Shown here one piece after another: positions 43,780 through 61,420 of a DNA stretch of 64,000 nt. A program made the position numbers and the translations under genes. The notes under the pieces are model-generated. The model ran no database searches and was not told where the DNA came from. It saw only the letters and a program-made list of their open reading frames with translations. The first letter of the stretch is position 1, and the number at the start of each line of letters is the position of its first letter. Origin of the DNA: Polaromonas sp. (GTDB lineage Bacteria > Pseudomonadota > Gammaproteobacteria > Burkholderiales > Burkholderiaceae_C); contig JAQGNE010000017.1 in assembly GCA_028291985.1 (NCBI GenBank), positions 124,001-188,000 on the forward strand, given 5' to 3'.

Positions 43780-43786
43780 ACAAGGT

Positions 43787-43866
43787 GAATGCACTGCCCT
43801 CACACGGTATTGCATTCGTAACGCTCATGCACTGGCGGGGAAGCCGGTGAGAGCTTCTGCTTTTTC
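43787..43866 (+). promoter_or_regulatory. Possible expression platform of the riboswitch
   Basis: Two hairpins lie between the B12 box and the receptor start: GAATGCA with TGCATTC (43787-43817) and GAAGC with GCTTC (43840-43857), the second followed by CTTTTTC. The second could be a weak intrinsic terminator or hide the ribosome site. The mechanism cannot be decided from sequence alone. Confidence 0.4.
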
Positions 43867-45747: not shown

Positions 45748-47118
45748 ATGTCCCGTTTCAGCTGTCCCACAGTATTGGTTGCCGCGCCGGCCTCTGGCCA
45801 GGGAAAAACCACGCTGTGTTGTGCACTGGCGCGACTGCACACCCGTGCTGGCCGCCGCGTCAGCGTCTTCAAGTGTGGGCCGGATTTCCTGGATCCACAC
45901 TGGCTCACGCTGGCAAGCGGTCGGCCGGTCCATCAGCTGGACCTGTGGATGACCGGACAGGCCGATTGCGAACAACGCCTGCACCAGGCGGCCCAGACGT
46001 CGGACCTCATCATTGTGGAAGGCGTGATGGGTTTGTTCGATGGCGATCCCAGCGCTGCCGACCTGGCCCGGCGCTTTGATCTGCCGGTGCTTGCGGTCAT
46101 CGATGCCAGTGCCATGGCCGGCACGTTTGGTGCGTTGGCCTGGGGTCTGCAGCACTACCGCGAAGGCATGCGCTGGGCTGGCGTGCTGGCCAACAGGGTG
46201 GCCTCTACAGGTCATGCGCTGATGCTGGAGACCAGTTTGCGGGACCCTGCATCGTGGCTGGGCGCCCTGATGCGTGACGCGGCACTGGCACTGCCCGAGC
46301 GCCATTTGGGCCTGGTGATAGCGGGTGAACTCGACGACGCGATGCAGCGGCTGGATGCCGCCGCCGATGCGTTGCTGGAGACGCCATTAGGCCAGATGAG
46401 CAGTGACGCTCTTCAGGCGTGGGCGGTTGAGTTCAAGCCCCCACCGTCTGAGCCGGATCAGCCCAATCGTGCTGCGCCCGGTATGGTTTTCAGACCTCTG
46501 GAGGGGCGGGTCATCGCGGTTGCGCGCGATGCCGCATTCTGTTTTATCTACGCTGCCAACCTGAGCACGCTTGAAAACCTCGGCGCTGACGTCGTGTATT
46601 TTTCGCCACTCGCCGACGAGCAGCTTCCGCCTTGCGATGCCGTCTGGCTGCCAGGAGGCTACCCCGAACTGCATGCTGAAAAGCTTGCTGCGAACCAGGC
46701 GATGAAAAACGCCATCGCGGCGCATGTCGCAGCCGGCAAGCCGCTATGGGCAGAGTGTGGCGGCATGATGGCACTGTTTGACGAGCTGGTGCTGGTCAAC
46801 GGGGAGCGACATGCGCTTTGGGGCCTGCTGGAGGGCAGGGTGACGATGCAGCCGCGCCTGGCTGCGCTGGGTCCCCAGCAACTTGAACTGCCTGCTGGCC
46901 TGCTGCGCGGCCACACCTTTCACTACTCCACCTGCAGTACGCTTCTGGCCCCCGCGGGCCGCACGCAGGCGGCACCGGGCCGCAAGCTGCGTGGCCAGGG
47001 CGAAGCGCTCTATGTGGCTGGGCCCACCGGCGCGCTACGGGCAAGTTACTTTCACGCCTGGTTCCCCTCCAGCCCTGAGGCCACTACAAACCTTTTTCTG
47101 GAAGCTGCACATGATTGA
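45748..47118 (+). CDS. cobB: Cobyrinate a,c-diamide synthase
   Basis: Glutamine-dependent amidase that converts the a and c side chains of (hydrogeno)cobyrinate to amides. From the ATG at 45748 the product is 456 residues: P-loop ATPase domain with APASGQGKTTLCCALAR and a C-terminal type I glutamine amidotransferase domain with WLPGGYPELHAEKL and the nucleophile cysteine in WAECGGMMALFDE. It starts 13 bases after btuB. An upstream in-frame start would overlap btuB and is less likely. Confidence 0.93.
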   Translation: MSRFSCPTVLVAAPASGQGKTTLCCALARLHTRAGRRVSVFKCGPDFLDPHWLTLASGRPVHQLDLWMTGQADCEQRLHQAAQTSDLIIVEGVMGLFDGDPSAADLARRFDLPVLAVIDASAMAGTFGALAWGLQHYREGMRWAGVLANRVASTGHALMLETSLRDPASWLGALMRDAALALPERHLGLVIAGELDDAMQRLDAAADALLETPLGQMSSDALQAWAVEFKPPPSEPDQPNRAAPGMVFRPLEGRVIAVARDAAFCFIYAANLSTLENLGADVVYFSPLADEQLPPCDAVWLPGGYPELHAEKLAANQAMKNAIAAHVAAGKPLWAECGGMMALFDELVLVNGERHALWGLLEGRVTMQPRLAALGPQQLELPAGLLRGHTFHYSTCSTLLAPAGRTQAAPGRKLRGQGEALYVAGPTGALRASYFHAWFPSSPEATTNLFLEAAHD

Positions 47119-47995
47119 CAAGGCGCTGCTGGATTGGCGTGTACGCACAGGTGGCATCAAGGCGCCTCTTGGGCCACAGCGCATCGTCTGCCTGACCGAA
47201 GAGCCTACCGAGTGGTTGTATCTGTTGGGCGAGGAGAGCCGTATCGTCGGCATCTCGGGCTACACCGTGCGCCCGCCACGCGCGCGGGAAGAAAAACCGA
47301 AGGTCAGCGCTTTCCTGAGCGCAAAGATAGAGAAGATTGTTGAACTGCAGCCCGACTGCGTGATCGGCTTTTCAGACCTGCAGGCCGACATCGCTGCGCA
47401 ACTGGTCAAAAAGGGAATTCAGGTCACCATCTTCAACCAGCGCAGCGTGGCGGAAATCTTTGCCATGCTGTACCAGCTTGCAGCCATGGTTGGACAGGAG
47501 GCCAGGGGCCTCACGCTGATCGAAGGCATGCAATCCCGGCTGATGGCTATCGAGCGTGCTGCTGCCGGCTTGACGCGTCGCCCCCGCGTGTTTTTCGAAG
47601 AGTGGTACGACCCGCATATCAGCGCCATTGCCTGGGTGTCCGAATTGATCGGCATCGCGGGCGGTGACGACTGTTTTCCCGAACTGGCCAAAGAGCCGAT
47701 GGGCAAGGGCCGCATCATTGCCGACGGGCAGGAGATCGTGCAGCGAAACCCTGACATTATTTTGGGCTCCTGGTGCGGCCGCCGGTTTCGCCCCGCGCAT
47801 GTGCGCGCCCGTCCAGGCTGGGCAAACGTCAACGCGGTGCGTGATGACCAGCTCTTTGAGATCAAGTCCGCCGATATCCTGCAGCCTGGCCCGGCCGCGC
47901 TGACCGATGGCGTCGAGCACCTGCACCGCATCATCATGGCCTGGGGCGAAGGCAGCGGCGCCAGCATCCCACCTGCGGAGCGCACCCATGGGTGA
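47111..47995 (+). CDS. BtuF-like cobalamin-binding protein without signal peptide
   Basis: A 294-residue protein with the periplasmic-binding fold of BtuF/FhuD (RIVCLTEEPTEWLYLLGEES, LQPDCVIGFSDLQADIAAQL, RNPDIILGSWCGRRF). The start MIDKALLDWRVRTGG has no hydrophobic leader and overlaps the cobB stop by eight bases, so it is most likely cytoplasmic. A separate, exported BtuF is encoded 580 bases downstream, so this is a paralogue with another job, perhaps holding or delivering corrinoids inside the cell. I do not know a characterised homologue. Confidence 0.75.
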   Translation: MIDKALLDWRVRTGGIKAPLGPQRIVCLTEEPTEWLYLLGEESRIVGISGYTVRPPRAREEKPKVSAFLSAKIEKIVELQPDCVIGFSDLQADIAAQLVKKGIQVTIFNQRSVAEIFAMLYQLAAMVGQEARGLTLIEGMQSRLMAIERAAAGLTRRPRVFFEEWYDPHISAIAWVSELIGIAGGDDCFPELAKEPMGKGRIIADGQEIVQRNPDIILGSWCGRRFRPAHVRARPGWANVNAVRDDQLFEIKSADILQPGPAALTDGVEHLHRIIMAWGEGSGASIPPAERTHG

Positions 47996-48578
47996 AGCAT
48001 TGGGCGTTTCCGGTAGCGAGCTCATTCTGGGCGGCCAGAAGAGCGGCAAGTCGCGCCGCGCCGAGATGCTGGCTGCTGCCTGGCTGGCGCAGGCATCCGG
48101 CCGCCGCGCGCTGATGGTGGCTACCGCCCAGCCCTGGGATGAAGAGATGCGCCAGCGCATCGCACGGCACCAGCAAGACAGGGCCGAGCGGGTTCCCGGC
48201 ATGCTGACACTGGAGGAGCCCCTGGCGCTTGCCGAAACCCTGCTGCAGCACAGCCTTCCGTCCACGCTGATCGTGGTTGACTGCCTGACGCTCTGGCTGA
48301 CCAACCTGCTGATGCCGGCACCAGATTCAGCATCAAATACGGCTGTAGCCAAGCACGCGCGAGGGGATGTAGCTATGCTTTCAGGAGCAATCGGCAAGTT
48401 GCCAGGCCCGGTGATTCTGGTCGGCAACGAGATCGGCCTGGGGGTCATACCCCTGGGGCCTGAGGTCCGGGCTTTTGTGGATGAACTGGGCTTGCTCAAC
48501 CAGAGCGTTGCAGCTGCCTGCAAGCGCGTGACGCTGATGGCGGCGGGCCTGCCCCTGACGCTGAAGGAGGTGCCATGA
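47988..48578 (+). CDS. cobU: Adenosylcobinamide kinase/guanylyltransferase CobU (CobP)
   Basis: Phosphorylates adenosylcobinamide and adds GMP, activating it for lower-ligand joining. The 196-residue product has the P-loop LGGQKSGKSRRAEM at about 14-27, the GTP-binding region RIARHQQDRAERVPGM with its His, and VVDCLTLWLTNLL. A dispersed repeat lies in the coding sequence at 48331-48390 and encodes about 20 residues of the linker before GPVILVGNEIGLGVIPLGPE. It overlaps both neighbours. Confidence 0.92.
   Translation: MGEALGVSGSELILGGQKSGKSRRAEMLAAAWLAQASGRRALMVATAQPWDEEMRQRIARHQQDRAERVPGMLTLEEPLALAETLLQHSLPSTLIVVDCLTLWLTNLLMPAPDSASNTAVAKHARGDVAMLSGAIGKLPGPVILVGNEIGLGVIPLGPEVRAFVDELGLLNQSVAAACKRVTLMAAGLPLTLKEVP
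48331..48390. repeat. Dispersed ~60-bp repeat, copy 5 (inside cobU)
   Basis: Reverse orientation: ATCAAATACGGCTGTAGCC first, then GTAGCTATGCTTTCAGGAGC. Its frame is open and it is read through as part of cobU. Confidence 0.7.
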
Positions 48579-49519
48579 CGACGTCAGCCAACCGCGCGCC
48601 GATCTTGCCGAGGCGCTTTGTGCCGCCGCGTCATCACTGCAGGTGGATAAGGGTAGCTTTCTTCACGCTTGTGTTTGGTCTCGCCGGTGGTGCGCAGGCG
48701 CTGCAGGTTGTGGATGACCGCGGCATCACCGTCACGTTTGCGCAGACACCGCAGCGCATCGTCAGCTTGCTGCCATCGCTGACCGAAAGCGTTTGTGCGA
48801 TGGATCAGTGCCAGCGCCTGGTTGGCCGTGACCGTTACTCCAACCATCCCGTAAGCGTGCAGCCCTTGCCGGTGCTGGGCGGCGGGATAGACCCCAACAT
48901 AGAGGGCATCGTCGCATTGAAGCCTGATGTGGTGTTGCTGGCGGTGTCGTCCCGCGCCAGCCAGCGCCTGGAGTCGCTGGGCATCAAGGTCGTGGCCCTG
49001 GAGCCGAGGAGCCATGCCGATGTGAGGCGCGTGTTGCAGACACTGGGCGCCTTGTTGGCGGTGCCTGACGAAGTGGGCGCGCTGCGCTTGTGGCGCATCA
49101 TCGACAGCAGCGTCAGCGCTGCCAGCCAGTCGCTGTCGCCGCAAGCTAAAAAGTCGCGGGTGTACTTTGAAGTCAGCCGAGGCCCTTACGCCGCTGGCGA
49201 GTCGTCCTTCATCGGTGAGACCTTGATGCGGCTGGGCGTGAAGAACGTGGTGCCCGCATCGCTCGGGCCTTTCCCGCGTTTGAATCCCGAATTCGTGGTG
49301 CGGGCCAACCCTGACATCATCATGGTGGGCAACCGCAGCATGCAAAGCATGGCACCTTACCCCGGCTGGGGCGGCATCGCCGCCGTCAGGCAAGAGCGCA
49401 TCTGCGTCTTCACGGCGGAAGAGTCGGATGTGGTCGTGCGTCCAGGTCCCCGTATGGCAGAGGCGGCGCGCATCATGGCCCGCTGCCTGGAAAAATACGC
49501 GCGAGGCAGCGCCAGTTGA
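48575..49519 (+). CDS. btuF: Periplasmic cobalamin-binding protein BtuF
   Basis: Binding protein of the BtuCDF importer. The 314-residue product has an unusually long basic n-region before the hydrophobic core (FFTLVFGLAGGAQA, about residues 31-44), then the BtuF fold with RIVSLLPSLTESVCAMDQCQ and GGGIDPNIEGIVALKPDVVL. It overlaps cobU and btuC by four bases each, forming a transport block inside the biosynthetic operon. Confidence 0.9.
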   Translation: MTTSANRAPILPRRFVPPRHHCRWIRVAFFTLVFGLAGGAQALQVVDDRGITVTFAQTPQRIVSLLPSLTESVCAMDQCQRLVGRDRYSNHPVSVQPLPVLGGGIDPNIEGIVALKPDVVLLAVSSRASQRLESLGIKVVALEPRSHADVRRVLQTLGALLAVPDEVGALRLWRIIDSSVSAASQSLSPQAKKSRVYFEVSRGPYAAGESSFIGETLMRLGVKNVVPASLGPFPRLNPEFVVRANPDIIMVGNRSMQSMAPYPGWGGIAAVRQERICVFTAEESDVVVRPGPRMAEAARIMARCLEKYARGSAS

Positions 49520-50535
49520 TCGCCAAACACGAGGTCCAGCATCGCCGGGCCCGGCTGCTCGCTGTAGGTCTGCTGCTGGCAACTGCCGCGCTGCTGGCGC
49601 TTGGGGTCAGCGTTGGCAGCACCGGGTTCGACAGCCTGCTCAACATGCGCGAGGACGCGCAGGCCCGGCAGATCGTCTGGGAGATCCGTTTACCCCGAAC
49701 CGCCGGTGCCTGGCTGGCCGGCGCGCTGCTGGGCCTGGCCGGCAGCGTGGCGCAAGGACTTTTTCGCAACCCCCTGGCTGATCCGTATCTGCTGGGCAGC
49801 GCGTCTGGTGCGTCGTTGGGCGTGGCCCTGGCGATGGCGCTCTTTGGCGTCTCGCCACTGGCCACCCACTGGATGGCGCGTATCGGGCTCACCGGAGCGG
49901 CCTTTCTGGGCGCGGTAGCAGCGGTACTGCTGACACTGCTACTTGCAAAGGGGGTGCAACACACCTTGCGTCTGCTGCTGGCTGGCGTGGTGGTCGGCGT
50001 GGTACTGGGGGCGATGTCATCGCTAATTCTCTTGATGACGCCCGACATCATGCAGGCCATGCAGTCCTTCATGCTGGGCAGTACAGCCTTTGTGGGCTGG
50101 ACGGCGTGTGCCGTGATGGCGCTGATGCTGCTGTTGACAGTTGCAGCGGGCTGGCTCATGAGCCATGTGCTGGACGGCCTTGCGCTTGGCGAATCGACCG
50201 CGCAAAGCCTGGGGCTGAAGCTGCCACAGATGCGGGCTGCGCTGGTGGCGGTACTGGCGCTGGCTACCGGAACGGCGGTCGCGCAAACCGGGCTGATCGC
50301 ATTTGTCGGTCTGGCAGCTCCGCATCTGGTGCGCTCGGTCGTCAAGACCACGCACGGCCGGTTGATCATGCTCTCGAGCCTGATGGGCGCGGTGCTGCTG
50401 ACTGCGGCTGATACGCTGGCGCGCTGGTTGGTCGCGCCGCAAGAACTGCCGGTGGGCGTGCTGACAGCCGTGTTGGGCGGCGGCTATTTGCTGTGGCTGA
50501 TGCACCGCCGTAACGGACGTGAGGCGGGGCTGTGA
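49516..50535 (+). CDS. btuC: Cobalamin ABC transporter permease BtuC
   Basis: FecCD-family inner-membrane permease, 339 residues with about nine to ten spans. Family signatures include IRLPRTAGAWLAGALLGLAG near residue 56, GSASGASLGVALAM near 95, and GLIAFVGLAAPHLVRSVVKT near 258, the loop that contacts the ATPase. The start at 49516 is TTG overlapping the btuF stop by four bases; the first ATG lies inside the gene. Confidence 0.92.
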   Translation: MIAKHEVQHRRARLLAVGLLLATAALLALGVSVGSTGFDSLLNMREDAQARQIVWEIRLPRTAGAWLAGALLGLAGSVAQGLFRNPLADPYLLGSASGASLGVALAMALFGVSPLATHWMARIGLTGAAFLGAVAAVLLTLLLAKGVQHTLRLLLAGVVVGVVLGAMSSLILLMTPDIMQAMQSFMLGSTAFVGWTACAVMALMLLLTVAAGWLMSHVLDGLALGESTAQSLGLKLPQMRAALVAVLALATGTAVAQTGLIAFVGLAAPHLVRSVVKTTHGRLIMLSSLMGAVLLTAADTLARWLVAPQELPVGVLTAVLGGGYLLWLMHRRNGREAGL

Positions 50536-51326
50536 CGCGCACCATGGCTACAGATGCCACGAAAAAAATAGCTATAAGCGCCCGGGAAATAAGGGCTGGC
50601 CTCGGGAATGTCCAGGTTTTGCACGACATTTCGCTTGACCTTCCCGCCGGCCGCTGGACCAGCATCGTCGGCCCCAATGGCGCGGGCAAGTCCACACTGC
50701 TGCGGGTCCTGGCAGGTTTGCTGGCCTGCCGGGGAACCATCAGGCTGTCGGGCCAGGACCTTCAAACACTGCCTGCCCGCGCGCGGGCGCAGCAGATGTC
50801 ATGGCTAGGTCAGAACGAGGCTTCAACGGATGACCTGGTGGCTTATGACGTGGCCATGCTGGGCCGGCTTCCGCACCAGCCCTGGCTGGCGCCACCCAGC
50901 GCTGCCGACCATGCGGCAGTTGAGCGCGCGCTGCGCCTGACCCAGGCCTGGGACTGGCGCTGGCGCACCCTGGGCCAGTTGTCGGGAGGCGAGCGCCAGC
51001 GGGTGCTGCTGGCGCGGGCACTCGCCGTGGAGGCCCAGGTGCTGCTAATGGACGAGCCGCTGGCCAACCTCGACCCGCCGCATCAGGCCGACTGGCTCGC
51101 CAGCGCCAGGCAACTGGTTGCCAATGGCAAGACGGTGGTCAGCGTGCTGCACGAGATATCGGTGGCGCTGCAGGCCGATGAAATGGTCGTCATGGCCAAT
51201 GGCCGCGTCACGCACCAGGGCCTGTGCCTTGAGGCGTCAACACACCGCGCGCTGGAATCTGTATTTGACCAGCGCATTGCAGTGCATGCGCTCGCTGGCC
51301 AGTGGGTGGCCTTGCCCAGACTCTGA
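50532..51326 (+). CDS. btuD: Cobalamin ABC transporter ATPase BtuD
   Basis: Cytoplasmic ATPase of the importer, 264 residues. Walker [15 protein letters not shown], signature [15 protein letters not shown], Walker [13 protein letters not shown]. The start is GTG at 50532, overlapping the btuC stop; an ATG at 50544 is an alternative. A dispersed repeat covers codons about 11-23 (encoding [13 protein letters not shown]), so the family-type N-terminus appears to have been replaced by repeat-derived sequence just before the core beta strand. Confidence 0.92.
50561..50599. repeat. Dispersed repeat, copy 6 (inside btuD 5' end)
   Basis: Contains GAAAAAAATAGCTATAAGCG followed by AAGGGCTGG, the two blocks of the family; shorter and less complete than other copies. 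Read through in frame as the N-terminal part of BtuD. Confidence 0.55.
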
Positions 51327-51364: not shown

Positions 51365-51946
51365 ATGAACATCGAATCGCCACCGTCCGCCAAGCCCTAC
51401 GACAAGCCCGAGGGCGAGCGCCGCGGCCTGATCATCGTCAACACCGGTGACGGCAAGGGCAAGAGCACGGCGGCCTTCGGTCTGGCCCTGCGCGCGCAGG
51501 GCCGCCACCATGTACATGGCAAGGCGGTCAAGGTCTTTCAGTTCATGAAGGTGCCTACAGCGCGTTTTGGCGAGCACCGCATGTTCGAGCAACTGGGCAT
51601 CCCGATTGAAGGGCTGGGTGACGGCTTCAGTTGGAAAAGCCAGGACCTGGAACATTCTGCGCAGCTGGCAAGAGACGGCTGGCAGAAAGCCAAGAACGCC
51701 ATCATGAATGGCGAGAACTTCATGGTGGTGCTCGACGAGCTGACCTATCCCCTGATCTATGGCTGGATGCCGCTGGATGACGTGCTGCAGACGCTGGCAA
51801 GCCGGCCGCGCGATGTGCATGTGGTCATCACCGGCAGGCGTTGTCCGGCCGAGATTATCGCGATCGCTGACACCGTGACCGAGATGGCCAAGGTCAAGCA
51901 CGCGTTCAATGCCGGCATTCCCGCCCAGCGCGGCATCGAGGATTGA
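51365..51946 (+). CDS. cobO: Corrinoid adenosyltransferase CobO (BtuR)
   Basis: Transfers adenosine from ATP to the cobalt of reduced corrinoids. The 193-residue product is of the CobA/CobO/BtuR type with P-loop [15 protein letters not shown] at about 24-38 and [14 protein letters not shown] and [16 protein letters not shown] later. The ATG at 51365 follows the strong ribosome site AAAGGAG. It comes 38 bases after btuD. Confidence 0.95.
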
Positions 51947-51950
51947 CCCG

Positions 51951-52658
51951 GTGCACTTGGCAGCCACGGACCATGCCTTCAGCCGTTCTGAGCGGGATGC
52001 GGTCTACCGCGCCATCAACGAGCGACGGGACATGCGGCATTTCATCGGGGGTTCGGTGCCCGACGAGGTGCTGCTGCGTTTGCTTTCCGCCGCGCACCAC
52101 GCGCCCAGCGTCGGCTTCATGCAACCCTGGCGCTTTATCCGGTTGCGCAGCCAGACCGTGCGGCAGGACACGCATACCCTGATCGAGCAAGAACGCATTC
52201 TCACGGCCCGCGCCCTTGGCAAGCGCGAGGACGAATTCATGAACCTGAAGGTGCAGGGCGTGCTGGAAGCGGCGGAAGTGCTGGTGGTGACCTTGCCTGC
52301 CGGGCGCGAAGCGCATGTTTTTGGCCGCCGCACCCTGCCGGAAATGGACCTGGCATCGGCTGCCTGCGCCATCCAGAACCTCTGGCTAGCGGCCCGGGCC
52401 GAAGGGCTGGGCATGGGCTGGGTCTCGATTTTCTGCCCCGTCAAGCTGGCCGGGCTGCTTGCCATGCCGGACGGCAGCAAGCCGATAGCCGTGTTGTGCC
52501 TGGGTCCGGTGCAGGCGTTTTATGACCAGCCCATGCTGCAGGCTGAAAACTGGGCACGCCGCGCTGCGCTGCCCGATCTGGTGTTTGACGATGGCTGGGG
52601 CCGGCCTGCGTCGCTGTTTGCCGATGTTGCCCCGCAGGCCTTGCCTGCCCAATCCTGA
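51951..52658 (+). CDS. bluB: 5,6-dimethylbenzimidazole synthase BluB
   Basis: Oxygen-dependent fragmentation of reduced FMN to 5,6-dimethylbenzimidazole, the lower ligand of cobalamin. The product of about 235 residues has the nitroreductase fold and BluB-specific stretches RRDMRHFIGGSVPDEVLLRL, HHAPSVGFMQPWRFI and GWVSIFCPVKLAGLLAMPDG. The GTG at 51951 follows the cobO stop closely; an ATG at 51909 inside cobO is an alternative. The need for O2 fits an aerobe. The stop codon is the first unit of a heptamer array. Confidence 0.92.
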   Translation: MHLAATDHAFSRSERDAVYRAINERRDMRHFIGGSVPDEVLLRLLSAAHHAPSVGFMQPWRFIRLRSQTVRQDTHTLIEQERILTARALGKREDEFMNLKVQGVLEAAEVLVVTLPAGREAHVFGRRTLPEMDLASAACAIQNLWLAARAEGLGMGWVSIFCPVKLAGLLAMPDGSKPIAVLCLGPVQAFYDQPMLQAENWARRAALPDLVFDDGWGRPASLFADVAPQALPAQS

Positions 52659-52695: not shown

Positions 52696-53169
52696 ATGCC
52701 TTTCGAGAACGCGCTTTTTCAGCTGGCCCAGCTGTTTCTCTGGCCTGTCACCCTGATGGTGTTTGGCGTGTTCGCTTATTCCTTGATGTGCCTTGGCGGC
52801 TTTGCCGTGGAAGCGTTGCGCCGGCGCAGGCAGCCTGGCCGTGTTCTGGTGCTGTCCAGATGGGCCGGCGGCTCAGCCGAGGCCCTGGAGCTGGCGGTGC
52901 TGAAGGAACTGGAAGGCCTGCGCCTGTGCAGCCGGGTGGCGCCGATGCTGGGCCTGGTGGCGACAATGATCCCGATGGGCCCTGCCCTGGTCGCCGTGGC
53001 ATCCGGGCAGTCGCAAGGCGTGGCGCAAAGCCTGGCACCAGCGTTTGCGGCTGTCATCGTCGCGCTAGTCGCAGCGTCAATCACCTTCGTGGTCTACAGC
53101 GTGCGGCGCCGCTGGCTGCTGGCGGAAATGCTCCAGTTGCTTGACGGCCCTGACGGGGCCAACGCATGA
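52696..53169 (+). CDS. MotA/TolQ/ExbB-like proton channel protein
   Basis: A 157-residue membrane protein, shorter than ExbB. One span lies at about residues 9-33; a pair of spans at about 78-105 and 113-135 holds the TolQ/ExbB signature APMLGLVATMIPMGPAL and the second helix SLAPAFAAVIVALVAASITF. The cytoplasmic loop between is compact. It overlaps the DUF2149 gene by four bases, which in turn overlaps the CobN-like gene. I infer that it forms a proton-driven motor for the CobN-like protein. Confidence 0.85.
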   Translation: MPFENALFQLAQLFLWPVTLMVFGVFAYSLMCLGGFAVEALRRRRQPGRVLVLSRWAGGSAEALELAVLKELEGLRLCSRVAPMLGLVATMIPMGPALVAVASGQSQGVAQSLAPAFAAVIVALVAASITFVVYSVRRRWLLAEMLQLLDGPDGANA

Positions 53170-53519
53170 ACACGCCAGGCGCACCTGCCAAACCGGCGCG
53201 GCCCCGGCTGCGCATCCTCGACGAAGACGACGACGACCCGGTGCTGTCCACCATCAACCTGATTGATGTGTTTCTGGTGGTGATCGGCATGCTCTTGATT
53301 GCGGTCATCAACAACCCGATGAACCCTTTCGCCGACGACAAGGTCACGATCATTCGCAACGAGGGCAAGCCGGACATGGAGATCATCACCAAAGAAGGCA
53401 GCAAGGTCACGAAGTTCAAGTCCAGTGGTGCCTCGGGCGAGGGTGATGGCGAGAAGGCAGGCACCGCCTACCGCATGAAGGACGGCAGCATGGTTTACGT
53501 GCCCGCCACAGCGCCATGA
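53166..53519 (+). CDS. DUF2149 protein, ExbD-like topology
   Basis: A 117-residue protein: short cytoplasmic N-terminus with an acidic run (DEDDDDPVLSTINLID), one membrane span at about 33-52 with an Asp at its start (NLIDVFLVVIGMLLIAVINN), then a periplasmic domain of about 60 residues. The topology and the acidic residue at the membrane entry recall ExbD/TolR. DUF2149 genes typically sit between a MotA/TolQ/ExbB-type gene and a CobN-like gene, as here. Function is unproven. Confidence 0.8.
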   Translation: MNTPGAPAKPARPRLRILDEDDDDPVLSTINLIDVFLVVIGMLLIAVINNPMNPFADDKVTIIRNEGKPDMEIITKEGSKVTKFKSSGASGEGDGEKAGTAYRMKDGSMVYVPATAP

Positions 53520-56500
53520 TCGCCGCATTGCGGCTGACCGGCTTGGCGCGCAGGACATGGCGCTGCGTGGTCGCCGGATTGGTATTTCTTGGTTTTTTGC
53601 TGGCCGGCGGTGCGCTGACGCCTGTGGCAATCGCCCAGGCACCGTCCCTGGGCCAGGGCCAGGCGTCTTCGCAAGCTGGCGAGCGAGTCGTACTGCTGAC
53701 CACCTATCTGGTGTCTCCAGCCCGGCTGGCCAAGCTGGTGGCTGCGGCAGCCCGGGCCGGCATACCTTTGCAAACCGTGTCGGCAGAAGGCAGCACCCCC
53801 GAGGCGCTTGGCCTCGCATTGCAGGGCGCCAAGCTGCTGCTGGTGGATGCGCCGCATGTCAGCGTCGGACAAAGCGTGGCCGCAAAGTTTGGCGATGTGA
53901 TTGCAGGAAACAGCGCGCCTTATGTGGTGGTGGGCGAATTCGCGTCAGTGTCCAAAAACCAGACGCAGGGCCTCCTGCCCCTCCAGGGCGAAAGGGGCGT
54001 TAACACGGCCTGGGCGCAGCGCCTGCGAGAGTACTGGCGCTTCAGCGGCGCCGACAACACGCGCCAGGCCATGGCGGCCTTGCAGCGCGGCGCTGTGACC
54101 ACAGATGCCGCGCTGGCTGCCATGCCGCCAGCGGTGCAATTGCCGTTGGCCGGTTTTTACAACCCCTCGTGGCCGAAAGTCGAGGCCAGTTCCGGCGCTG
54201 TAGCCACTATTTATGCATCAAAAGAGCCGCTATCCCAGGTAAATCAAGGGATAGCAGCTATCAATGGGGTAGCACCAAAGACGGTAGCCATTGCGGTCAA
54301 CAATGCAGTGTTCACCTCTGACGACACCGGCTGGCTGGATGTGCTCATCACGGCCTTGGAGCAGCGTGGCCTGCGTGCCTATGCCTTCTACGGCCCGCGC
54401 CAGCAAACCGACCTGTTTTATCAGGCAACGCATACGCCAACGGCCCAGGGCCAGCAGCGCATGGCGGATGTCATCATCAATTCCGCGCTGGTGTTCAACC
54501 CGACAGAGCGCAAGGCAGAGCTGGAGCGCATCGGGGTGCCGGTGCTGCAGACCATGCCGGCGCTTGCCATGGACCCTGCACAGTGGGCCGCCAGCAAGGA
54601 CGGCCTGGCGCTGGGCGATGTGGCGTACTACTACACGCCCGGCGAGCTTTCAGGCATGGTCGACGCGATGCTGATCACGGCGCGCGACGCCCAAAGCGGA
54701 GCGCTGCTGCCGCTTCCCCTGCAAATCAATGCAGTTGCCGACAAAGCCCTTGCATTGACGCGCTTGCAGCAGACGCCGCCCGCGAAGCGGCGGGTGGCCA
54801 TGATGGTCTACAACTACCCTTTGGGCGAAAGCAATTTTGGTGCGTCGTTCCTGAATGTTCCGAAAAGCCTGCACAACATGCTAGTTGCCATGAAGGGCGC
54901 CGGCTATCTGGTGGACGCCCCAGGCGGCGAGCAGATCACACCGCTGGTACAGGCCACGCTGGGTGCGTTTTACAAACCCGAAACGCTGGACAGCCTGCCC
55001 GCGCAAGGTCTTGCCGATACCCTGCCGCTGCGTGATTACCTGGCGTGGTTTCGGGCGTTGCCGCCGGCCACCCAGCAGCGGATCGAAAGCTATTGGGGCA
55101 AGCCCGAACAGGCGCTGATGCTCAGGCCGCAGGTGTCTGTCAATGGCCGTACCGAAACCGCATTCGTCATTCCCCGCGTGCTGCTCGGCCATGCGGTGGT
55201 GATGCCACAGCCCCTGCGCCAGGAGATCACTGCCGCCGCCGATGCGGGGCTGCGCAAGAAACGCATCAGCCATCGCTCGGCGGTGCCGCTTAGCCACAAC
55301 TACCTGGCTACTTACCTCTGGCTGCGCCAAGCGTTTGGCGCCCATGCGGTGGTGCATGTGGGAACCCATGGCACGCTGGAATGGGCGCCGGGCAAGGAGC
55401 GCGGGCTGTCGGCGCTGGACGACCCCTTGCTGGCACTGGGCGACATGCCCAATATCTACCCCTACATCATGGACAACCTGGGCGAGGCGCTGACTGCCAA
55501 GCGGCGCGGCCGCGCGGTGCTGGTGAGCCATTCCACGCCGATGTTCACACCGGCGGGGTTTCGCCCCGGCGTGCATGAGATGCACGACCTGATGCATGAC
55601 TGGGAAACGGTTGCGCCCGGCGCTGTCAAAAAAGAACTTGAAGCCCGGCTGATTGCGCAGTTCGTCGAACACAAGCTACACCGTGACATCGGTTGGAACC
55701 AGCAAAAAATTGCCGCCGACTTTGCAGGTTTCATGGAGCTGCTGCATCCCTATCTGGACGATGTTGCCCAAACCGCGCAGCCCCTGGGGCTGGCAGCCTT
55801 TGGCGAGGTACCCGATGCGCAGCGCCGTTTGGGCACCATCATGCAGTCGCTGCGAAAGCCCCTGATCGACGCGCTGGGCGAAGACATTGACGAGGTCTTT
55901 TTGCTCGACGCCAAGAAAATCGTCAACTCCCGCCCAGCCCGCTGGCTGCAAGTGGCGTTGAAGGACGCTGAAGCCGCCAGCCAGCTGGATTTGCGCCAGC
56001 GTGATGCGCAAGAGGCCGCCAGCACAGGCGCGCACAGCGCCGTGCCCAACAAGGCAGGCGCCAAGTTGCTTGACCCGAGAGTGTTGCTGGCATTGGCGCG
56101 GCGGGCGCAGCAGCTGGAAAAGGCGCTTGCCAACAATGAAGAAATCAGCGGCTTTCTGGCTGCCCTGGACGGTGCGCATGTCAAGGCCAGCTACGGCGGC
56201 GACCCGGTTCGCAACCCGGACAGCCTGCCGACTGGCCGCAACCTGTATGGCTTTGATCCCAGCCGGGTTCCCACGCGTCAGGCCTGGGACACAGGCGTTG
56301 CCGCGTTCGATGCCTGGATGAAAAAGCACCAGGCTGATCACGGCGGCAAATTTCCTGAAAAGATCGCTTTCACCTTGTGGGCCGGCGAGACCATGCGGCA
56401 TCAGGGCGTGATGGAGTCTCAGGCCTTGCATGCCATGGGTTTGCGGCCGCGCTGGGATGACGCCGGGCGCGTGATCGGGCTGGACATTGTTGCGGCCAGC

Positions 56501-57805
56501 GAGCTGAAGCGCCCGCGGCTGGATGTGCTGATCAGCGTCACCGGTTCTTACCGTGACCAGTTTCCCACGGTGATGCGATGGATCGATGAAGGCGTACGGC
56601 AGGTCGCGCAGATCCAGGAGCCCGGCAACACCGTCGCTGTCAATTCGAAAAAGCTGGCGGCGGAATTTTCGCTGCAGGGCACTGGCGCGGCGGACGCAGA
56701 GCGCTGGTCGACGGCGCGGGTGTTTTCCAACGAGCAGGGCACCTACGGCACGGGCCTGAGCGAAGCCGTGCAGGCCACCGATGGGTGGGCGCAGTCCCGA
56801 AAAGGTGGGGGCGACGCCGCGATGTCGCAGTTGTACATTGAGCGCATGGGCCATGCCTACGGGCAGGGGCCGGGCGGCGACGCAGCTTCCGGCGCTCCTG
56901 GCAAGGTCTACGCCCGCAACCTGGCCCAGGTTGATGCCGCCTTGCTTTCGCGCACCTCGAACACCTACGGCATGCTGACGAGTGACGACCCCTTTCAATA
57001 CCTGGGTGGCATTGCCATGGCGGTTCGCCAGATGACGGGCAAGGACCCGGCGCTCTATGTACAGAACCTGCGCGATGCGAGCGAAGTCACGACCGAAAGT
57101 GCTGCCAGTGCCATCGCCAAGGAAATGCAGACCCGCTACCTGCATCCCCAGTGGATTGGTGCACAAAAGGCAGAAGGCTATAGCGGCACGCTGCAGGTGC
57201 TCAAGACCGCGCAGTTTTTGTGGGGCTGGCAGGTGACGGCGCCGCAGTCGGTGCGGCAGGACCACTGGCAGTCGCTGCATGACGTGTATGTGCGCGACCA
57301 GTACAAGCTTGGCACACGGGAATGGCTCGAAGGTGATAACCGCGCCGCGTTTGCACAGACGCTGGAGCGCATGATGGACGCGATTCGCCTCAACTACTGG
57401 CAGCCGGATGCGGCGACCCGGCGCGAGCTGACCCAGGCCTACAACCGGGCGCTGAAAGCCACCGGCTTGCGCGAAAGCAATGCGGCGGTGCAGCGCTTCG
57501 CAGCGGCATCGAACAGTGCCGCGGCTGCCAGCGCAAAGCCGCGCGCAGCACAGGCGGCACCACCTGATAACGCTGCGCCACAACCCGGCACGCAACCGGA
57601 GCAGCCACCACCGCAACCGGATGTCATTAAAGGCCTGAAGCTTGAATTGCAGCCCCCCGAGGCGGCTGAACCCATGGAGGTTGTCAACAGTCTGGCGGTG
57701 CTTTGGGGCATGGCGCTGCTGCTGGCCCTGGGCGCATGGCGGCAATCGCGGCGCTGGCGTTCGTCGTATCCTGGTTCCGCAGCCCACCTGGGCCGGGCGC
57801 GCTGA
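53516..57805 (+). CDS. Exported, membrane-anchored CobN-like chelatase homologue
   Basis: A 1429-residue protein of the CobN/BchH magnesium-/cobalt-chelatase H-subunit family. Unlike true CobN it starts with a signal peptide (residues 1-40, hydrophobic core VVAGLVFLGFLLAGGALTPV) and ends with a Pro/Ala/Gln-rich linker (about 1331-1372) and a membrane span (about 1389-1408), so nearly all of it should face the periplasm. The family core includes VVHVGTHGTLEWAPGKERG with His614, DMPNIYPYIMDNLGEALTAK and LDVLISVTGSYRDQFPTVMR near residue 1005. No cobS or cobT partner is present; ExbB-like and DUF2149 genes overlap it upstream. A dispersed repeat lies in its coding sequence at 54197-54272. Confidence 0.88.
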   Translation: MIAALRLTGLARRTWRCVVAGLVFLGFLLAGGALTPVAIAQAPSLGQGQASSQAGERVVLLTTYLVSPARLAKLVAAAARAGIPLQTVSAEGSTPEALGLALQGAKLLLVDAPHVSVGQSVAAKFGDVIAGNSAPYVVVGEFASVSKNQTQGLLPLQGERGVNTAWAQRLREYWRFSGADNTRQAMAALQRGAVTTDAALAAMPPAVQLPLAGFYNPSWPKVEASSGAVATIYASKEPLSQVNQGIAAINGVAPKTVAIAVNNAVFTSDDTGWLDVLITALEQRGLRAYAFYGPRQQTDLFYQATHTPTAQGQQRMADVIINSALVFNPTERKAELERIGVPVLQTMPALAMDPAQWAASKDGLALGDVAYYYTPGELSGMVDAMLITARDAQSGALLPLPLQINAVADKALALTRLQQTPPAKRRVAMMVYNYPLGESNFGASFLNVPKSLHNMLVAMKGAGYLVDAPGGEQITPLVQATLGAFYKPETLDSLPAQGLADTLPLRDYLAWFRALPPATQQRIESYWGKPEQALMLRPQVSVNGRTETAFVIPRVLLGHAVVMPQPLRQEITAAADAGLRKKRISHRSAVPLSHNYLATYLWLRQAFGAHAVVHVGTHGTLEWAPGKERGLSALDDPLLALGDMPNIYPYIMDNLGEALTAKRRGRAVLVSHSTPMFTPAGFRPGVHEMHDLMHDWETVAPGAVKKELEARLIAQFVEHKLHRDIGWNQQKIAADFAGFMELLHPYLDDVAQTAQPLGLAAFGEVPDAQRRLGTIMQSLRKPLIDALGEDIDEVFLLDAKKIVNSRPARWLQVALKDAEAASQLDLRQRDAQEAASTGAHSAVPNKAGAKLLDPRVLLALARRAQQLEKALANNEEISGFLAALDGAHVKASYGGDPVRNPDSLPTGRNLYGFDPSRVPTRQAWDTGVAAFDAWMKKHQADHGGKFPEKIAFTLWAGETMRHQGVMESQALHAMGLRPRWDDAGRVIGLDIVAASELKRPRLDVLISVTGSYRDQFPTVMRWIDEGVRQVAQIQEPGNTVAVNSKKLAAEFSLQGTGAADAERWSTARVFSNEQGTYGTGLSEAVQATDGWAQSRKGGGDAAMSQLYIERMGHAYGQGPGGDAASGAPGKVYARNLAQVDAALLSRTSNTYGMLTSDDPFQYLGGIAMAVRQMTGKDPALYVQNLRDASEVTTESAASAIAKEMQTRYLHPQWIGAQKAEGYSGTLQVLKTAQFLWGWQVTAPQSVRQDHWQSLHDVYVRDQYKLGTREWLEGDNRAAFAQTLERMMDAIRLNYWQPDAATRRELTQAYNRALKATGLRESNAAVQRFAAASNSAAAASAKPRAAQAAPPDNAAPQPGTQPEQPPPQPDVIKGLKLELQPPEAAEPMEVVNSLAVLWGMALLLALGAWRQSRRWRSSYPGSAAHLGRAR
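54197..54272. repeat. Dispersed repeat, copy 7 (inside the cobN-like gene)
   Basis: Reverse orientation: GCTGTAGCCACTATTTATGC at one end and ATAGCAGCTATCAATGGGG at the other, about 76 bases, longer than other copies. The frame stays open and encodes about 25 residues (AVATIYASKEPLSQVNQGIA and following) that have the look of an insertion loop. Confidence 0.65.
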
Positions 57806-57939: not shown

Positions 57940-58917
57940 ATGTTGACAAGCCTGGGCAGTTTCGCATGGGTGTTTGGCGGCGCGATTGCGGTGGCGCTGG
58001 CCGTTGACCATGTGTTTGGCGAGCCCTCCGGCAGATGGCATCCGGTGGTGTGGATAGGAAATGCCCTGAGTTGGGCCACGCCCTGGGTACTGCAGGCAAG
58101 CGCCGGCACCACAGCGGCTTCAAAATTGAAGTGTTTAAGCCGTGGAGCCCTTGTAAATATTGCCTTCTCCGCTATTGTTTTGCTAGTAACGATCACCTTG
58201 CAGTCGGTCCTGCTGCAGCTGCCCGGCGTGCTGGCGGCCTTGCTGATGGGACTTGCGTTGAAGCCCTTGCTGGCCTGGGCCATGCTGCGCAGCGAAGTGC
58301 AGGCGGTAGAGTGCGCGCTGGCTGAATCGCTGCAGGCAGGGCGTGAGCGTTTGAGCTGGCTGGTCAGCCGTGACACCTCTCTGCTGAGTGAAAGCGAGGT
58401 ACGCCAGAGCGCCATCGAGTCGCTGGCTGAAAACCTCAATGACTCCGTGGTGGCGCCGCTTTTCTGGTTTTTTATCTTCGGCTTGCCCGGCGCGGCGGTC
58501 TACCGGTTTGCCAACACCGCTGACGCGATGTGGGGCTACAAGGGGGTGCGCAACGGCCAGAACTGGGAATGGGCGGGCAAGTGGGCGGCGCATATGGACG
58601 ACATCCTGTCTTATCTTCCGGCGCGCCTTACAGCGCTGCTGATGGCGCTGATCGGCGGTGGCATCAGCATCAGCGCACTGCTGCGCGAAGCGGCCAAAAC
58701 CCCGTCGCCCAACAGTGGCTGGCCAATGGCTGCCATGGCGCTGCTTGTCAACATACAGCTGTGCAAACCCGGCGTGTACACGCTCAATTCCGGCGGCCGC
58801 TCACCACAGCCAAACGATACTGTGCTTGCCCAAAAATATGCATCAAAAGTGATCGCAGCCCTTTTGATGATCGGGCTTGCAGCTACGCTTTCAATAGCAT
58901 TATGGCAAACCGCATGA
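57940..58917 (+). CDS. cobD: Adenosylcobinamide-phosphate synthase CobD (CbiB)
   Basis: Inner-membrane enzyme that attaches the aminopropanol arm to adenosylcobyric acid. The 325-residue product has about five spans and the family motifs DHVFGEPSGRWHPVVWIGN, SAIESLAENLNDSVVAPLFW and ADAMWGYKG. Two stretches are repeat-derived: residues about 61-82 (from 58120) and the C-terminal 24 residues (from 58831). It overlaps cobC by four bases. Confidence 0.92.
   Translation: MLTSLGSFAWVFGGAIAVALAVDHVFGEPSGRWHPVVWIGNALSWATPWVLQASAGTTAASKLKCLSRGALVNIAFSAIVLLVTITLQSVLLQLPGVLAALLMGLALKPLLAWAMLRSEVQAVECALAESLQAGRERLSWLVSRDTSLLSESEVRQSAIESLAENLNDSVVAPLFWFFIFGLPGAAVYRFANTADAMWGYKGVRNGQNWEWAGKWAAHMDDILSYLPARLTALLMALIGGGISISALLREAAKTPSPNSGWPMAAMALLVNIQLCKPGVYTLNSGGRSPQPNDTVLAQKYASKVIAALLMIGLAATLSIALWQTA
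58120..58185. repeat. Dispersed repeat, copy 8 (inside cobD)
   Basis: Its reverse complement has CAAAACAATAGCGGAGAAGG then AAGGGCTCCACGGCTTAAAC, the block order of the family. It is in frame and encodes part of a loop and the start of a hydrophobic segment in CobD. Confidence 0.6.
58831..58902. repeat. Dispersed repeat, copy 9 (at the 3' end of cobD)
   Basis: Its reverse complement has TGCTATTGAAAGCGTAGCTG, then AAGGGCTGCGATCACTTTTG. It encodes the hydrophobic C-terminal end of CobD and reaches to the cobC start region. Confidence 0.65.
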
Positions 58918-59960
58918 TGGCAACCCTTGCGATAAACGGACCGCTTCAGCACGCACGCCAGCATGGCGGGCCCGACGCGCTGGGTGTTCCGCTCCACGAT
59001 TTCTCGAGCAACAGCAACGCCTGCGGGCCGTGTCCGCCGGCGCTCGCGGCGGTTTGCGCGGCCGACCCAAGGCGCTATCCGGACGCCAGCTACAGCGCTT
59101 TGAGGCAGCTGCTGGCGCGCTTTCACGGTGTCGATGCGGCGCGCATCGTTCTGGCGGGCAGTGCCAGCGAATTTATTTTCCGGATCACGTCGCTGTGCGC
59201 ACGGCAGGGCGGCGTCGCCGTCAGCCTGCCGGCGCACTGTTATGGGGACTATGCGCAGGCGTCCAGGGCGTTCGGATTACAGATAACGGCTAACCTGGCG
59301 GACGCGCAATTGCACTGGGCGTGCGAACCTTCCAGCCCGCTGGGTACGGCAGACTTGCGCGTGCTGGCTCTGGCGGATGTCGCCAGCGCTGCGCAGCCCG
59401 GTCTTGTGGTGCTGGACAGAGCCTATGAGCCGCTGCGTCTGAGCGGCGCGCCAGCCTTGACGCAGCCGCAGCTTGGATCAATATGGCAACTTTTCAGCCC
59501 CAACAAGACGCTGGGCCTGACCGGTGTGCGGGCGGCGTACGCCATCGCGCCGGAAGGCGCCGGTGTGCAGGTTGATGCGATGGAGCAGCTGTGCCCGTCA
59601 TGGCCGCTGGGCACACATGGTGCGGCCATGCTGCAGGCCTGGACGCTGGATGAGACCCAGGCGTGGATTGCTGACAGTCTGCTCCGGCTGCGCGCATGGA
59701 AGCTGAGGCAACTTGGCCTGTTCGAGGCCATGAGATGGCACTGCCTGCCCAGCGATGCCAATTTTTATGTGGCAAGACCAGTGTTGCCAGTCGGGCTGGC
59801 GTGGGCCGACGCCTGGGCCCGATTGCGCACCGGCGGCATCAAGCTGCGTGACACCGCATCCTTCGGTCTGCCCGGGCACCTGCGTATCGCCGTACAACCG
59901 CCCGAAGTGCAGGACGCCCTGTGCCAGGCCTGGACAAAACTTATCGAGGCCTGCCAATGA
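58914..59960 (+). CDS. cobC: Threonine-phosphate decarboxylase CobC
   Basis: PLP enzyme of the histidinol-phosphate aminotransferase-like group that makes (R)-1-amino-2-propanol phosphate from L-threonine phosphate (family knowledge). The 348-residue product has the core HDFSSNSNACGPCP, DRAYEPLRLSG and the PLP lysine in FSPNKTLGLTGVRAAYAI. The start ATGATG at 58914 overlaps the cobD stop; an ATG at 58902 is an alternative. It overlaps cobQ by four bases. Confidence 0.9.
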   Translation: MMATLAINGPLQHARQHGGPDALGVPLHDFSSNSNACGPCPPALAAVCAADPRRYPDASYSALRQLLARFHGVDAARIVLAGSASEFIFRITSLCARQGGVAVSLPAHCYGDYAQASRAFGLQITANLADAQLHWACEPSSPLGTADLRVLALADVASAAQPGLVVLDRAYEPLRLSGAPALTQPQLGSIWQLFSPNKTLGLTGVRAAYAIAPEGAGVQVDAMEQLCPSWPLGTHGAAMLQAWTLDETQAWIADSLLRLRAWKLRQLGLFEAMRWHCLPSDANFYVARPVLPVGLAWADAWARLRTGGIKLRDTASFGLPGHLRIAVQPPEVQDALCQAWTKLIEACQ

Positions 59961-61420
59961 CTGCCAAATGCGTGATGGTTCTGGGCACCACCAGCGGTGC
60001 CGGAAAAAGCTGGCTGACCACGGCGCTGTGCCGCTACTACGCTCGCCAGGGCCTGAGGGTCGCCCCGTTCAAGGCCCAGAACATGAGCAACAACGCACGG
60101 GTGGTGGCGGGTGGCGAGATCGGAAGTGCCCAGTATTTCCAGGCGCTGGCGGCCCGGGCAGTGCCTGAAGTGCGCATGAACCCGTTGCTGCTCAAGCCCG
60201 AAAAAGACACCCGCAGCCAGGTCATCCTGCTGGGGCAGGTCCACCCTGAGCTGTCACGCATGGCATGGCGTGGACGCAGTGCATCGGTCTGGCCCGTGAT
60301 TGCACAGGCGCTGGATGATCTCATGGCCGAAAACGATGTGGTGGTGATCGAGGGCGCCGGATCGCCCGCCGAGATCAACCTGAAGGACAGCGACATCGTC
60401 AACATGCGGGTAGCGCTGCACGCCAACGCGGCCTGCCTGCTGGTGACCGACATAGACCGTGGCGGTGCATTCGCGCATCTCTACGGCACCTGGGCCATGC
60501 TGGATGCGGCTGAACAAAAATGCATCAGGGGTTTTGTGCTGAACAAGTTTCGGGGCGACGCCTCCTTGCTGGCACCCGGCCCGCAGATGCTGCGGGACCT
60601 GACCGGCGTACCGACGGTTGCCACGCTGCCGATGTGGTGGCAGCACGGCTTGCCCGAGGAAGACGGTGTGTTTGACGACCGGAGCCAGTCGACCGGACTT
60701 GTCACCCTGACGGTGGCAGTGGTCGCTTATCCGCGTATCAGCAATCTTGACGAATTTCAGTCGCTCAAGAATGTGCCAGGGGTGCGGCTCAAATGGGTGC
60801 GCGGGCCGGCAGAACTGGCGGATGCGGACTGGATCATTCTGCCGGGCTCCAAGCACACCAGTGGCGACTTGGCCTGGCTGCGCGCGCAGGGGCTTGACTA
60901 CGCCATCCATGCCCATGCAGCGCGCGGTGCGGCGGTGCTGGGCATTTGTGGCGGCCTGCAGATGCTGGGTGAAGCACTGATTGACCCGCACGGCATCGAT
61001 GGCAATGCGCCTGGCCTTGGCCTGCTGGCGGTCGTGACGGTGTTCGAGGAAGGCAAGACGGTGCAGCATCGCCAGGCGCGGTTTGAAGGTACGTCCGGTC
61101 TGTGGTCAAGCTTGTCGGGCGTGGAGGCTGCGGGTTATGAAATTCATCACGGGCAGACCGACGTGCACCCGGCCATGGCTGCAGCAGGCGACAAGGCGCT
61201 GCCGGTCATGCAGTCCGGCCTGGCCTGGCAAAACAGTACGGGCAATGTACTGGGCGTGTACCTGCATGGTCTGTTCGAGGACGCGCGGATACTCCAGGCG
61301 CTGTTTGGCGCTGCAGCGCCCACGCTGGAGCAGGTATTTGACGGGCTGGCCGACTATGTCGCGCAGCATGTCGAGCCCGGCGTGCTGGCATCGCTGATTG
61401 CCGACCAGCAGGTCGGCTAA
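59957..61420 (+). CDS. cobQ: Cobyric acid synthase CobQ (CbiP)
   Basis: Glutamine-dependent amidation of side chains b, d, e and g of adenosylcobyrinic acid a,c-diamide. The 487-residue product has the ATPase domain with GTTSGAGKSWLTTALCRYYA and FKAQNMSNNARVV, and a C-terminal glutamine amidotransferase domain with the nucleophile in GICGGLQMLGEAL and the His in GYEIHHGQT. It overlaps the cobC stop. It is the last recognised gene of the cobalamin run. Confidence 0.95.
   Translation: MTAKCVMVLGTTSGAGKSWLTTALCRYYARQGLRVAPFKAQNMSNNARVVAGGEIGSAQYFQALAARAVPEVRMNPLLLKPEKDTRSQVILLGQVHPELSRMAWRGRSASVWPVIAQALDDLMAENDVVVIEGAGSPAEINLKDSDIVNMRVALHANAACLLVTDIDRGGAFAHLYGTWAMLDAAEQKCIRGFVLNKFRGDASLLAPGPQMLRDLTGVPTVATLPMWWQHGLPEEDGVFDDRSQSTGLVTLTVAVVAYPRISNLDEFQSLKNVPGVRLKWVRGPAELADADWIILPGSKHTSGDLAWLRAQGLDYAIHAHAARGAAVLGICGGLQMLGEALIDPHGIDGNAPGLGLLAVVTVFEEGKTVQHRQARFEGTSGLWSSLSGVEAAGYEIHHGQTDVHPAMAAAGDKALPVMQSGLAWQNSTGNVLGVYLHGLFEDARILQALFGAAAPTLEQVFDGLADYVAQHVEPGVLASLIADQQVG

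Follow-up and report, generated by a model that had tools for sequence, protein, structure and literature searches.

A predicted periplasmic CobN-like chelatase with an ExbB-like/DUF2149 pair in a riboswitch-controlled corrinoid salvage operon of Polaromonas

Results

In a 64,000-nucleotide stretch of Polaromonas sp. DNA (the window; assembly GCA_028291985.1, contig JAQGNE010000017.1, positions 124,001 to 188,000), we examined three genes encoding an ExbB-like protein, a DUF2149 protein and a CobN-like class I chelatase. A first-pass annotation had described these genes as coupled, and we confirmed all three reading frames in window positions 52696-57805, with successive genes overlapping at ATGA and a Pfam match for each product. 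The residue pairings given here are with ExbB and ExbD, and with HmuS, the heme dechelatase of the Bacteroidota hmu operons.

52696..53169, + strand: ExbB/TolQ-like three-helix protein (MotA_ExbB match, structural model and fold matches; T90 aligned with ExbB T148)
53166..53519, + strand: DUF2149 protein (membrane helix; invariant D34 aligned with ExbD D25)
53516..57805, + strand: CobN-like class I chelatase (Pfam, alignment and hydropathy; H618 = HmuS H538, D1158 = HmuS H1209)

The ExbB-like protein matches MotA_ExbB (E 2.1e-06; 27.9 bits, cut-off 22.9), the DUF2149 protein matches the family of that name (E 1.2e-26), and the 1429-amino-acid chelatase matches CobN-Mg_chel (PF02514, E 1.3e-280). 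Hydropathy and sequence predict the features that the earlier annotation had proposed for the chelatase: a putative export signal at the N-terminus, made up of a hydrophobic stretch followed by an AxA site, and at the C-terminus a Pro-rich linker, a last membrane span and a basic tail. Because the basic tail follows the last span, the body of the chelatase is predicted to lie in the periplasm.

The AlphaFold model of the ExbB-like protein (predicted local distance difference test, pLDDT, 92.8) contains three long helices and finds its best fold matches in TolQ/ExbB, in agreement with the three-span protein described earlier; its T90 is invariant in 27/27 sequences. D34 of the DUF2149 protein is likewise invariant (32/32). 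The model of this second protein, a helix (residues 25-48) and a small beta domain, is of low confidence (pLDDT 70.9), and its soluble part gave no fold match (best Foldseek E 0.56). Pfam reported DUF2149 alone, with no match to the ExbD family at E 0.01. A PDB sequence search with the ExbB-like profile returned no match at E 1, and one with the DUF2149 profile returned unrelated-looking rows, the best being a designed protein at E 0.00018 over four weak stretches.

The three genes sit between BluB and CbiB in one same-strand run 3' of a cobalamin riboswitch.

43515..43795, + strand: cobalamin riboswitch RF00174, preceding the operon (64.6 bits, gathering threshold 31.5)
43875..45734, + strand: BtuB-type TonB-dependent receptor (TIGR01779, 430 bits, below the cut-off of 599.7)
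45757..47118, + strand: CobB, cobyrinic/hydrogenobyrinic acid a,c-diamide synthase (PRK01077, 413 bits, cut-off 254; start chosen, the open reading frame opens at 45697)
47108..47995 (start approximate), + strand: second BtuF-like binding protein (PF01497, E 1.2e-50)
47988..48578 (start approximate), + strand: CobU-type kinase/guanylyltransferase (153.9 bits, below the cut-off of 161)
48575..49519, + strand: BtuF (PRK03379, 65.8 bits, below the cut-off of 234; the top row is another binding-protein model)
49516..50535, + strand: BtuC (best match BtuC, 187.5 bits, below the cut-off of 334)
50532..51326, + strand: BtuD-type ABC ATPase (named from its position; heme/corrinoid/F420-0 transporter ATPases at E ~1e-56, all below cut-off)
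51365..51946 (start approximate), + strand: CobO/CobA corrinoid adenosyltransferase (TIGR00708, 190.5 bits, cut-off 167.75)
51909..52658, + strand: BluB, 5,6-dimethylbenzimidazole synthase (TIGR02476, 242.8 bits, cut-off 150)
57940..58917, + strand: CbiB/CobD (TIGR00380, 224.7 bits, cut-off 165.9)
58896..59960 (start approximate; the open reading frame opens at 58530), + strand: CobC/CobD-type aminotransferase (TIGR01140, 99.7 bits, below the cut-off of 290.55)
59921..61420, + strand: CobQ, cobyric acid synthase (PRK00784, 528.9 bits, cut-off 273)

CobB, CobO, BluB, CbiB and CobQ exceed NCBI curated cut-offs; BtuB, CobU, BtuF, BtuC and the aminotransferase have the expected best match at scores under the cut-off, and BtuD, under every cut-off, belongs with the ABC ATPases of heme/corrinoid/siderophore transporters. 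Together, the riboswitch, BtuB, the BtuCDF-type genes and the corrinoid-assembly genes bear out the corrinoid setting that had been read from this DNA. Upstream of the riboswitch, on the opposite strand, lies a 6S RNA gene (42608-42787, -).

We then searched the genome that carries the window (G000, 97% complete). It encodes one PF02514 protein and five B12-binding domain matches. We did not find CbiC/CobH, our marker of ring synthesis and the only ring gene searched, and the host bacterium thus seems unable to build the B12 ring. Nor did we find CobT (PF06213), or a ChlI-type ATPase at E 1e-8; of the two partners that the first-pass annotation called absent, CobS and CobT, the absence of CobT is borne out, CobS not having been searched with a model of its own.

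DUF2149 occurs in 24 of 150 family genomes (26 matches), and we read stretches of up to 20 kb around all 26. Ten loci in ten genomes, which we call class B, have ExbB-DUF2149-CobN among corrinoid genes. In another 14 (class A) a TonB receptor accompanies CobN, ExbB and DUF2149, mostly in the order TonB receptor-CobN-ExbB-DUF2149, and corrinoid-assembly genes are missing; one locus counted here, L048, lies in the window's own family, has its receptor on the opposite strand and carries the HmuS motif DHVYEFMGG in its chelatase. The remaining 2/26 have ExbB-DUF2149 without CobN. In both of these (L050 ~9832-11549 and L054 ~10076-11966), translations place the pair beside an apparent Sel1-repeat protein and a sensor kinase/regulator pair, and the ExbB-like/DUF2149 motor may serve further partners.

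The same division appears among named relatives, of which we took the best 80 loci out of 571 relatives, including Polaromonas (72% identity), Rhodoferax, 14 Variovorax, Acidovorax, Aquabacterium, Roseateles, Azonexus and Parazoarcus. Sorting by active-site motif, which left out L110 and L132 and entered L137 once in each class for its two proteins, gave 46 class B, 22 class A1 and 11 class A2 loci. Corrinoid-assembly genes are present in 39 of the 46 class B loci (37 with three or more), as opposed to none of the 33 class A loci. In L137 (Azonexus hydrophilus) class B and class A sets stand side by side on opposite strands, and in L055 (genome G003, one contig) the class B CobN is apparently split over two frames. 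A second TonB receptor with a PepSY_TM protein, which together may take up a cobalt chelate and release its metal, accompanies 7/58 class B loci (L055, L056, L057, L059, L115, L117 and L125) and 1/8 canonical CobN loci (L090).

A last membrane span, called by a hydropathy rule, is present in 54/56 class B, 29/35 class A1 and 11/11 class A2 proteins and in the single HmuS-type protein, as against 2/12 canonical CobN and 0/14 BchH. Both class B misses (L122 and L136) run into contig ends; among the six class A1 misses, L155 lies at a contig end and the others are slightly under threshold or oddly ended. Proteins for which a wrong frame was picked were left out of the motif, anchor and tree analyses (L110 and L132, class B by context; L067, L069 and L087, canonical).

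Riboswitches, called with Rfam, follow the same line: a cobalamin riboswitch is found in 20/22 class B loci tested and in 0/13 class A loci tested. The positives comprise 8/10 family class B loci (the window itself being L049), 6/6 named operons and 6/6 stand-alone operons; in both family loci that gave none (L057 and L060), the sequence stops short of the beginning of the operon. For comparison operons, one was found in L093 and none in L062 and L090, which begin inside the operon. We discarded a B12-box pattern of our own making, which missed every one of nine riboswitch-positive controls. L132 has a pair of cobalamin riboswitches (8414-9006), one on each strand, which face BtuB-CobB... and ExbB-DUF2149-CobN-CobO...

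The stand-alone operons come from the seven named class B loci that lack corrinoid genes, which form one clade inside class B and occur in Azonexus, Parazoarcus, Thauera and Caldimonas. Six of these reach far enough upstream to be read (L124 8264-13978; L126, L131, L136, L137 and L166), the seventh (L133) starting inside the contig's first gene, and all six have the order cobalamin riboswitch, ZrgA-like, ExbB-like, DUF2149, CobN-like. The ZrgA-like gene matched PF10986 in all four loci run against Pfam and was found by tblastn in all six; DUF2149 in L131 and L136 gave no tblastn match and was seen by reading the gap. In Vibrio cholerae, ZrgA is described in the available text as binding zinc in the periplasm (PMC9820375). 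It is hard to see why a B12 riboswitch would control a periplasmic metal-binding protein if no metal were being handled in that compartment; the metal would presumably be cobalt.

A quick tree of 65 rows (64 of 134 proteins, hand-chosen, and the HmuS stretch; support by the Shimodaira-Hasegawa-like approximate likelihood ratio test, SH-aLRT, only) places class B in one clade (99), with A1 and A2 together as its sister (97). Two HmuS-type rows stand next to class A/B, the whole periplasmic group being supported at 99 with canonical CobN and BchH outside it; the HmuS row is an incomplete sequence on a long branch, and there is a long-branch warning between canonical CobN and BchH.

Active-site residues were compared as well. 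H618 of the window chelatase aligns with HmuS H538, an essential His, whereas D1158 occupies the position of HmuS H1209 and Q1161 that of E1212, the pattern of canonical CobN. Class B and canonical CobN thus share DD..Q where HmuS has DH..E, and the window motif SDDPFQYLGG takes the place of HmuS LSLDHxxEFMGG. H618, D1157, D1158 and Q1161 are invariant in the eight class B proteins compared. Class A2 has DH like HmuS; class A1 also has DD, and the Asp alone is therefore no marker of corrinoid use. The HmuS region with the heme ligands Met79 and His254 did not align with the window chelatase. On curated models, the window protein scores 499.3 bits against TIGR02257 (below the cut-off of 822.05; canonical L062 CobN, 1536.3) and passes NF004644, a model labelled cobaltochelatase subunit CobN (1311.6 against 1248). 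Class A or B proteins from L114, L124, L142 and L171 pass the latter model as well, whereas canonical L062 CobN fails it (538.6).

In two relatives, the same salvage operon carries an adenosine triphosphate (ATP)-driven cassette. In G099, of the same genus, CobW-CobN-ChlI-ChlD followed by DUF1636 and CbtA lies between CobO and BluB, and in G120 the CobW-CobN-ChlI-ChlD genes share this interval with those for a TonB receptor and a PepSY protein; the window set, by comparison, sits just after BluB. The salvage operon of G044 has no chelatase. CobW adjoins 8/8 canonical CobN loci read (of 14 found) and 0/58 class B loci. CbtA is in 1/8 and 0/58, respectively, so that its absence says little. CobW is reported, in the portion of the source available, to supply cobalt to CobNST in vivo (PMC7689651). 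A cytoplasmic cobalt-supply protein on one side and a periplasmic metal-binding protein on the other are consistent with one job in two compartments.

As for ring synthesis in relatives, CbiC is in 0/10 family class B genomes. CbiB scores above 200 bits in 80 family genomes, 20 of them with CbiC; the 60 without CbiC include 10 with class B, 7 with canonical CobN and 16 with either.

Discussion

From the observed gene set, context, riboswitch, clade and aligned residues, together with the predicted topology, we propose a periplasmic, anchored class I chelatase that inserts cobalt into salvaged corrinoids, driven by an ExbB-like/DUF2149 proton channel (probability roughly 45%). The first-pass annotation had named insertion, removal or remodelling by proton-motive force; we favour insertion over the other two because the same operon carries CobW-CobN-ChlI-ChlD in two relatives, and over removal also because of the B12 regulation and the active site. 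That the direction is insertion, the metal cobalt, the substrate a corrinoid and the energy proton-motive force is what we infer from these comparisons. The results point to possible ATP-independent handling of cobalt outside the cytoplasm. The fuller account, in which bacteria without ring synthesis import cobalt-free corrinoids and add cobalt in the periplasm, before import into the cytoplasm, with this motor, is more tentative.

Under this proposal, B12 scarcity would let the riboswitch permit production of the set. Corrinoids lacking cobalt or carrying the wrong metal would enter through BtuB and be captured by the CobN-like protein, which would insert periplasmic Co(II), perhaps brought in by the ZrgA-like protein in the stand-alone forms. 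BtuF-BtuCD would import the product, and CobB, CobO, CobQ, CbiB, CobC and CobU would complete it. In the role held elsewhere by the ATPases ChlI/ChlD or CobS/CobT, the ExbB-like/DUF2149 pair would draw on the proton-motive force and pass the energy on as conformational change by way of the C-terminal anchor and the Pro-rich linker.

Several observations weigh against this reading. ExbB T148 and ExbD D25 carry protons. HHalign pairs T90 with the former at E 0.0055 but a probability of only 6.6%, and D34 with the latter over 20 columns at E 0.0026 but a probability of only 11.6%; ExbB E176 and T181, which we take to be important, have no counterpart in the HHalign single-pair alignment. Neither class B nor canonical CobN occurs in 44/60 CbiB genomes without CbiC. 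The absence of CbiC from the family class B genomes is marginal (0/10 against 20/80, p = 0.06, in related genomes), CbiC is present in 4/20 named class B genomes (two of the four having the stand-alone form), and one of the ten family class B genomes, G122, carries both class B and canonical CobN. The CobNST substrate is made by CobB, presumably in the cytoplasm, and therefore a periplasmic substrate must differ. HmuS, the nearest characterised periplasmic relative, removes metal, and the recombinant protein does this with NADH, no channel partner being mentioned in the accessible part of the report (PMC12583661), and metal-free corrinoids as a nutrient are undocumented in the literature searched, as far as the available texts go.

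Among the alternatives, one that we consider unlikely is energised corrinoid handling with no metal chemistry, the CobN-like body unloading BtuB or loading BtuF. A Pro-rich linker and membrane anchor next to an ExbB-like protein resemble TonB, and the position among BtuB and BtuCDF suits such a machine. Against it, H618, D1157, D1158 and Q1161 are invariant in the eight class B proteins compared, stand-alone operons have a ZrgA-like metal-binding protein and no receptor, and the 44 genomes above have neither chelatase.

Rather unlikely, too, is a periplasmic de-chelatase that takes the metal, be it cobalt or a wrong one, out of corrinoids or other tetrapyrroles brought into the cell, in the way HmuS takes iron out of heme. 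HmuS falls inside the periplasmic clade and has been shown to be a dechelatase (PMC12583661, available portion), and H618 matches its essential H538. Against this, the motif near the canonical CobN pattern replaces that of HmuS, the exchange is with CobW-CobN-ChlI-ChlD, and a B12 riboswitch on a cobalamin-assembling operon speaks against destroying cobalt corrinoids.

We regard as improbable a cobalt-acquisition device that strips cobalt from periplasmic chelates for importers, with no involvement of the corrin ring. Class A sets adjoin TonB receptors, and Pseudomonas PA1922-1925 belongs to the Zur regulon (PMC4542158 and PMC9431628, sections available); B12 riboswitch regulation and the lack of CobW at class B loci argue the other way, CbtA being uninformative here. 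That the set is a functionless relic or passenger is very improbable: most CbiB genomes without CbiC manage without either chelatase and the G003 copy is apparently split between frames, but the active site is conserved, the genes overlap, and a separately regulated stand-alone form exists in four genera.

To our knowledge, class I metal-inserting chelatases otherwise use AAA+ ATPases. Should cobalt insertion in the periplasm prove correct, these chelatases would have a further source of energy and a further site of action, corrinoids without cobalt or with the wrong metal would be genuine nutrients, and a role would be found for the DUF2149 family and for the proteins named CobN by NF004644, which rejects canonical CobN. 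Relatives with the ATP-driven cassette in the same operon make the function cleanly testable by genetics.

Comparison with known systems

The hmu operons (HmuS/HmuU/HmuV; PDB 9d26) offer the closest likeness. HmuS belongs to the same class I chelatase family and, like the window protein by prediction, is membrane-anchored outside the cytoplasm (PMC12583661 and PMC13227078, in the parts available); both systems have MotA/TolQ/ExbB and DUF2149 partners (hmu: PMC10434189, available text), and the essential His is conserved. The kinship with hmu-type sets described in the first-pass annotation thus stands, as kinship: the window set lies in a corrinoid operon with RF00174 instead of hmuYR, has DDPFQYLGG instead of DHVYEFMGG, and forms a separate branch. 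Recombinant HmuS with heme and reduced nicotinamide adenine dinucleotide (NADH) makes product with only 1-2 turnovers, and the available portion of that report mentions no channel partner (PMC12583661); one turnover of the related chemistry therefore needs no channel. A 2026 Porphyromonas study states, in its accessible text, that Hmu-type partners are absent from the operons of CobN genes and that HmuV is unlike any known family (PMC13227078). The first statement does not hold for class B, as far as proteins named CobN by NF004644 are concerned, and D34 of DUF2149 bears on the second.

Canonical CobN, with CobS/CobT or ChlI/ChlD and CobW, shares the CobN/Mg-chelatase domain, DD..Q and, in two relatives, the salvage operon. 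It has ATPase partners and no anchor, whereas the window chelatase is predicted to be anchored and fails TIGR02257. The distinction from ATP-driven CobNST drawn earlier is upheld by the separate clade, the predicted topology and the lack of a CobT or ChlI-type partner, with CobS not searched on its own. The canonical CobNST substrate is given as hydrogenobyrinic acid a,c-diamide (PMC7689651, available portion).

Pseudomonas aeruginosa PA1922-1925, compared by description rather than by sequence, comprises a TonB receptor, a CobN-like protein, an ExbD/proton-channel-annotated protein and DUF2149 (PMC4542158 and PMC9431628). It resembles the window operon in these components and differs in zinc regulation, in gene order and in that the available sections report no corrinoid genes. 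On plasmid pSZ77 of Geobacter lovleyi, cobN-exbB-exbD-tonB likewise has a CobN without CobS/CobT by ExbB/ExbD-like genes and B12 clusters, for which the authors propose transport of siderophores, B12 or corrinoid precursors; unlike the window set it is plasmid-borne, in a strain that grows without added B12 (PMC3403914, as far as available). In Chlorobaculum tepidum, chelatase genes by a cobalamin receptor may put cobalt into acquired cobalamin (PMC8620254, available part), and PMC6460266 cites a 2003 comparative-genomics paper for BtuS.

Relative to ExbB/ExbD and TolQ/TolR, the window pair has the ExbB/TolQ-like fold and counterparts of T148 and D25 at low alignment probability, with a shorter channel protein, DUF2149 for ExbD and a CobN-like protein for TonB/TolA. 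In the parts available of the literature searched, we found no description of a riboswitch-controlled periplasmic CobN/ExbB/DUF2149 set. The HmuS and Porphyromonas work, in its accessible portions, already establishes extracytoplasmic CobN-like proteins with ExbB/DUF2149-type partners for heme; new, as far as our searches show, is that the corrinoid sets form one riboswitch-controlled branch, that an ATP-driven cassette takes the place of such a set in relatives, and that a stand-alone form is linked to ZrgA.

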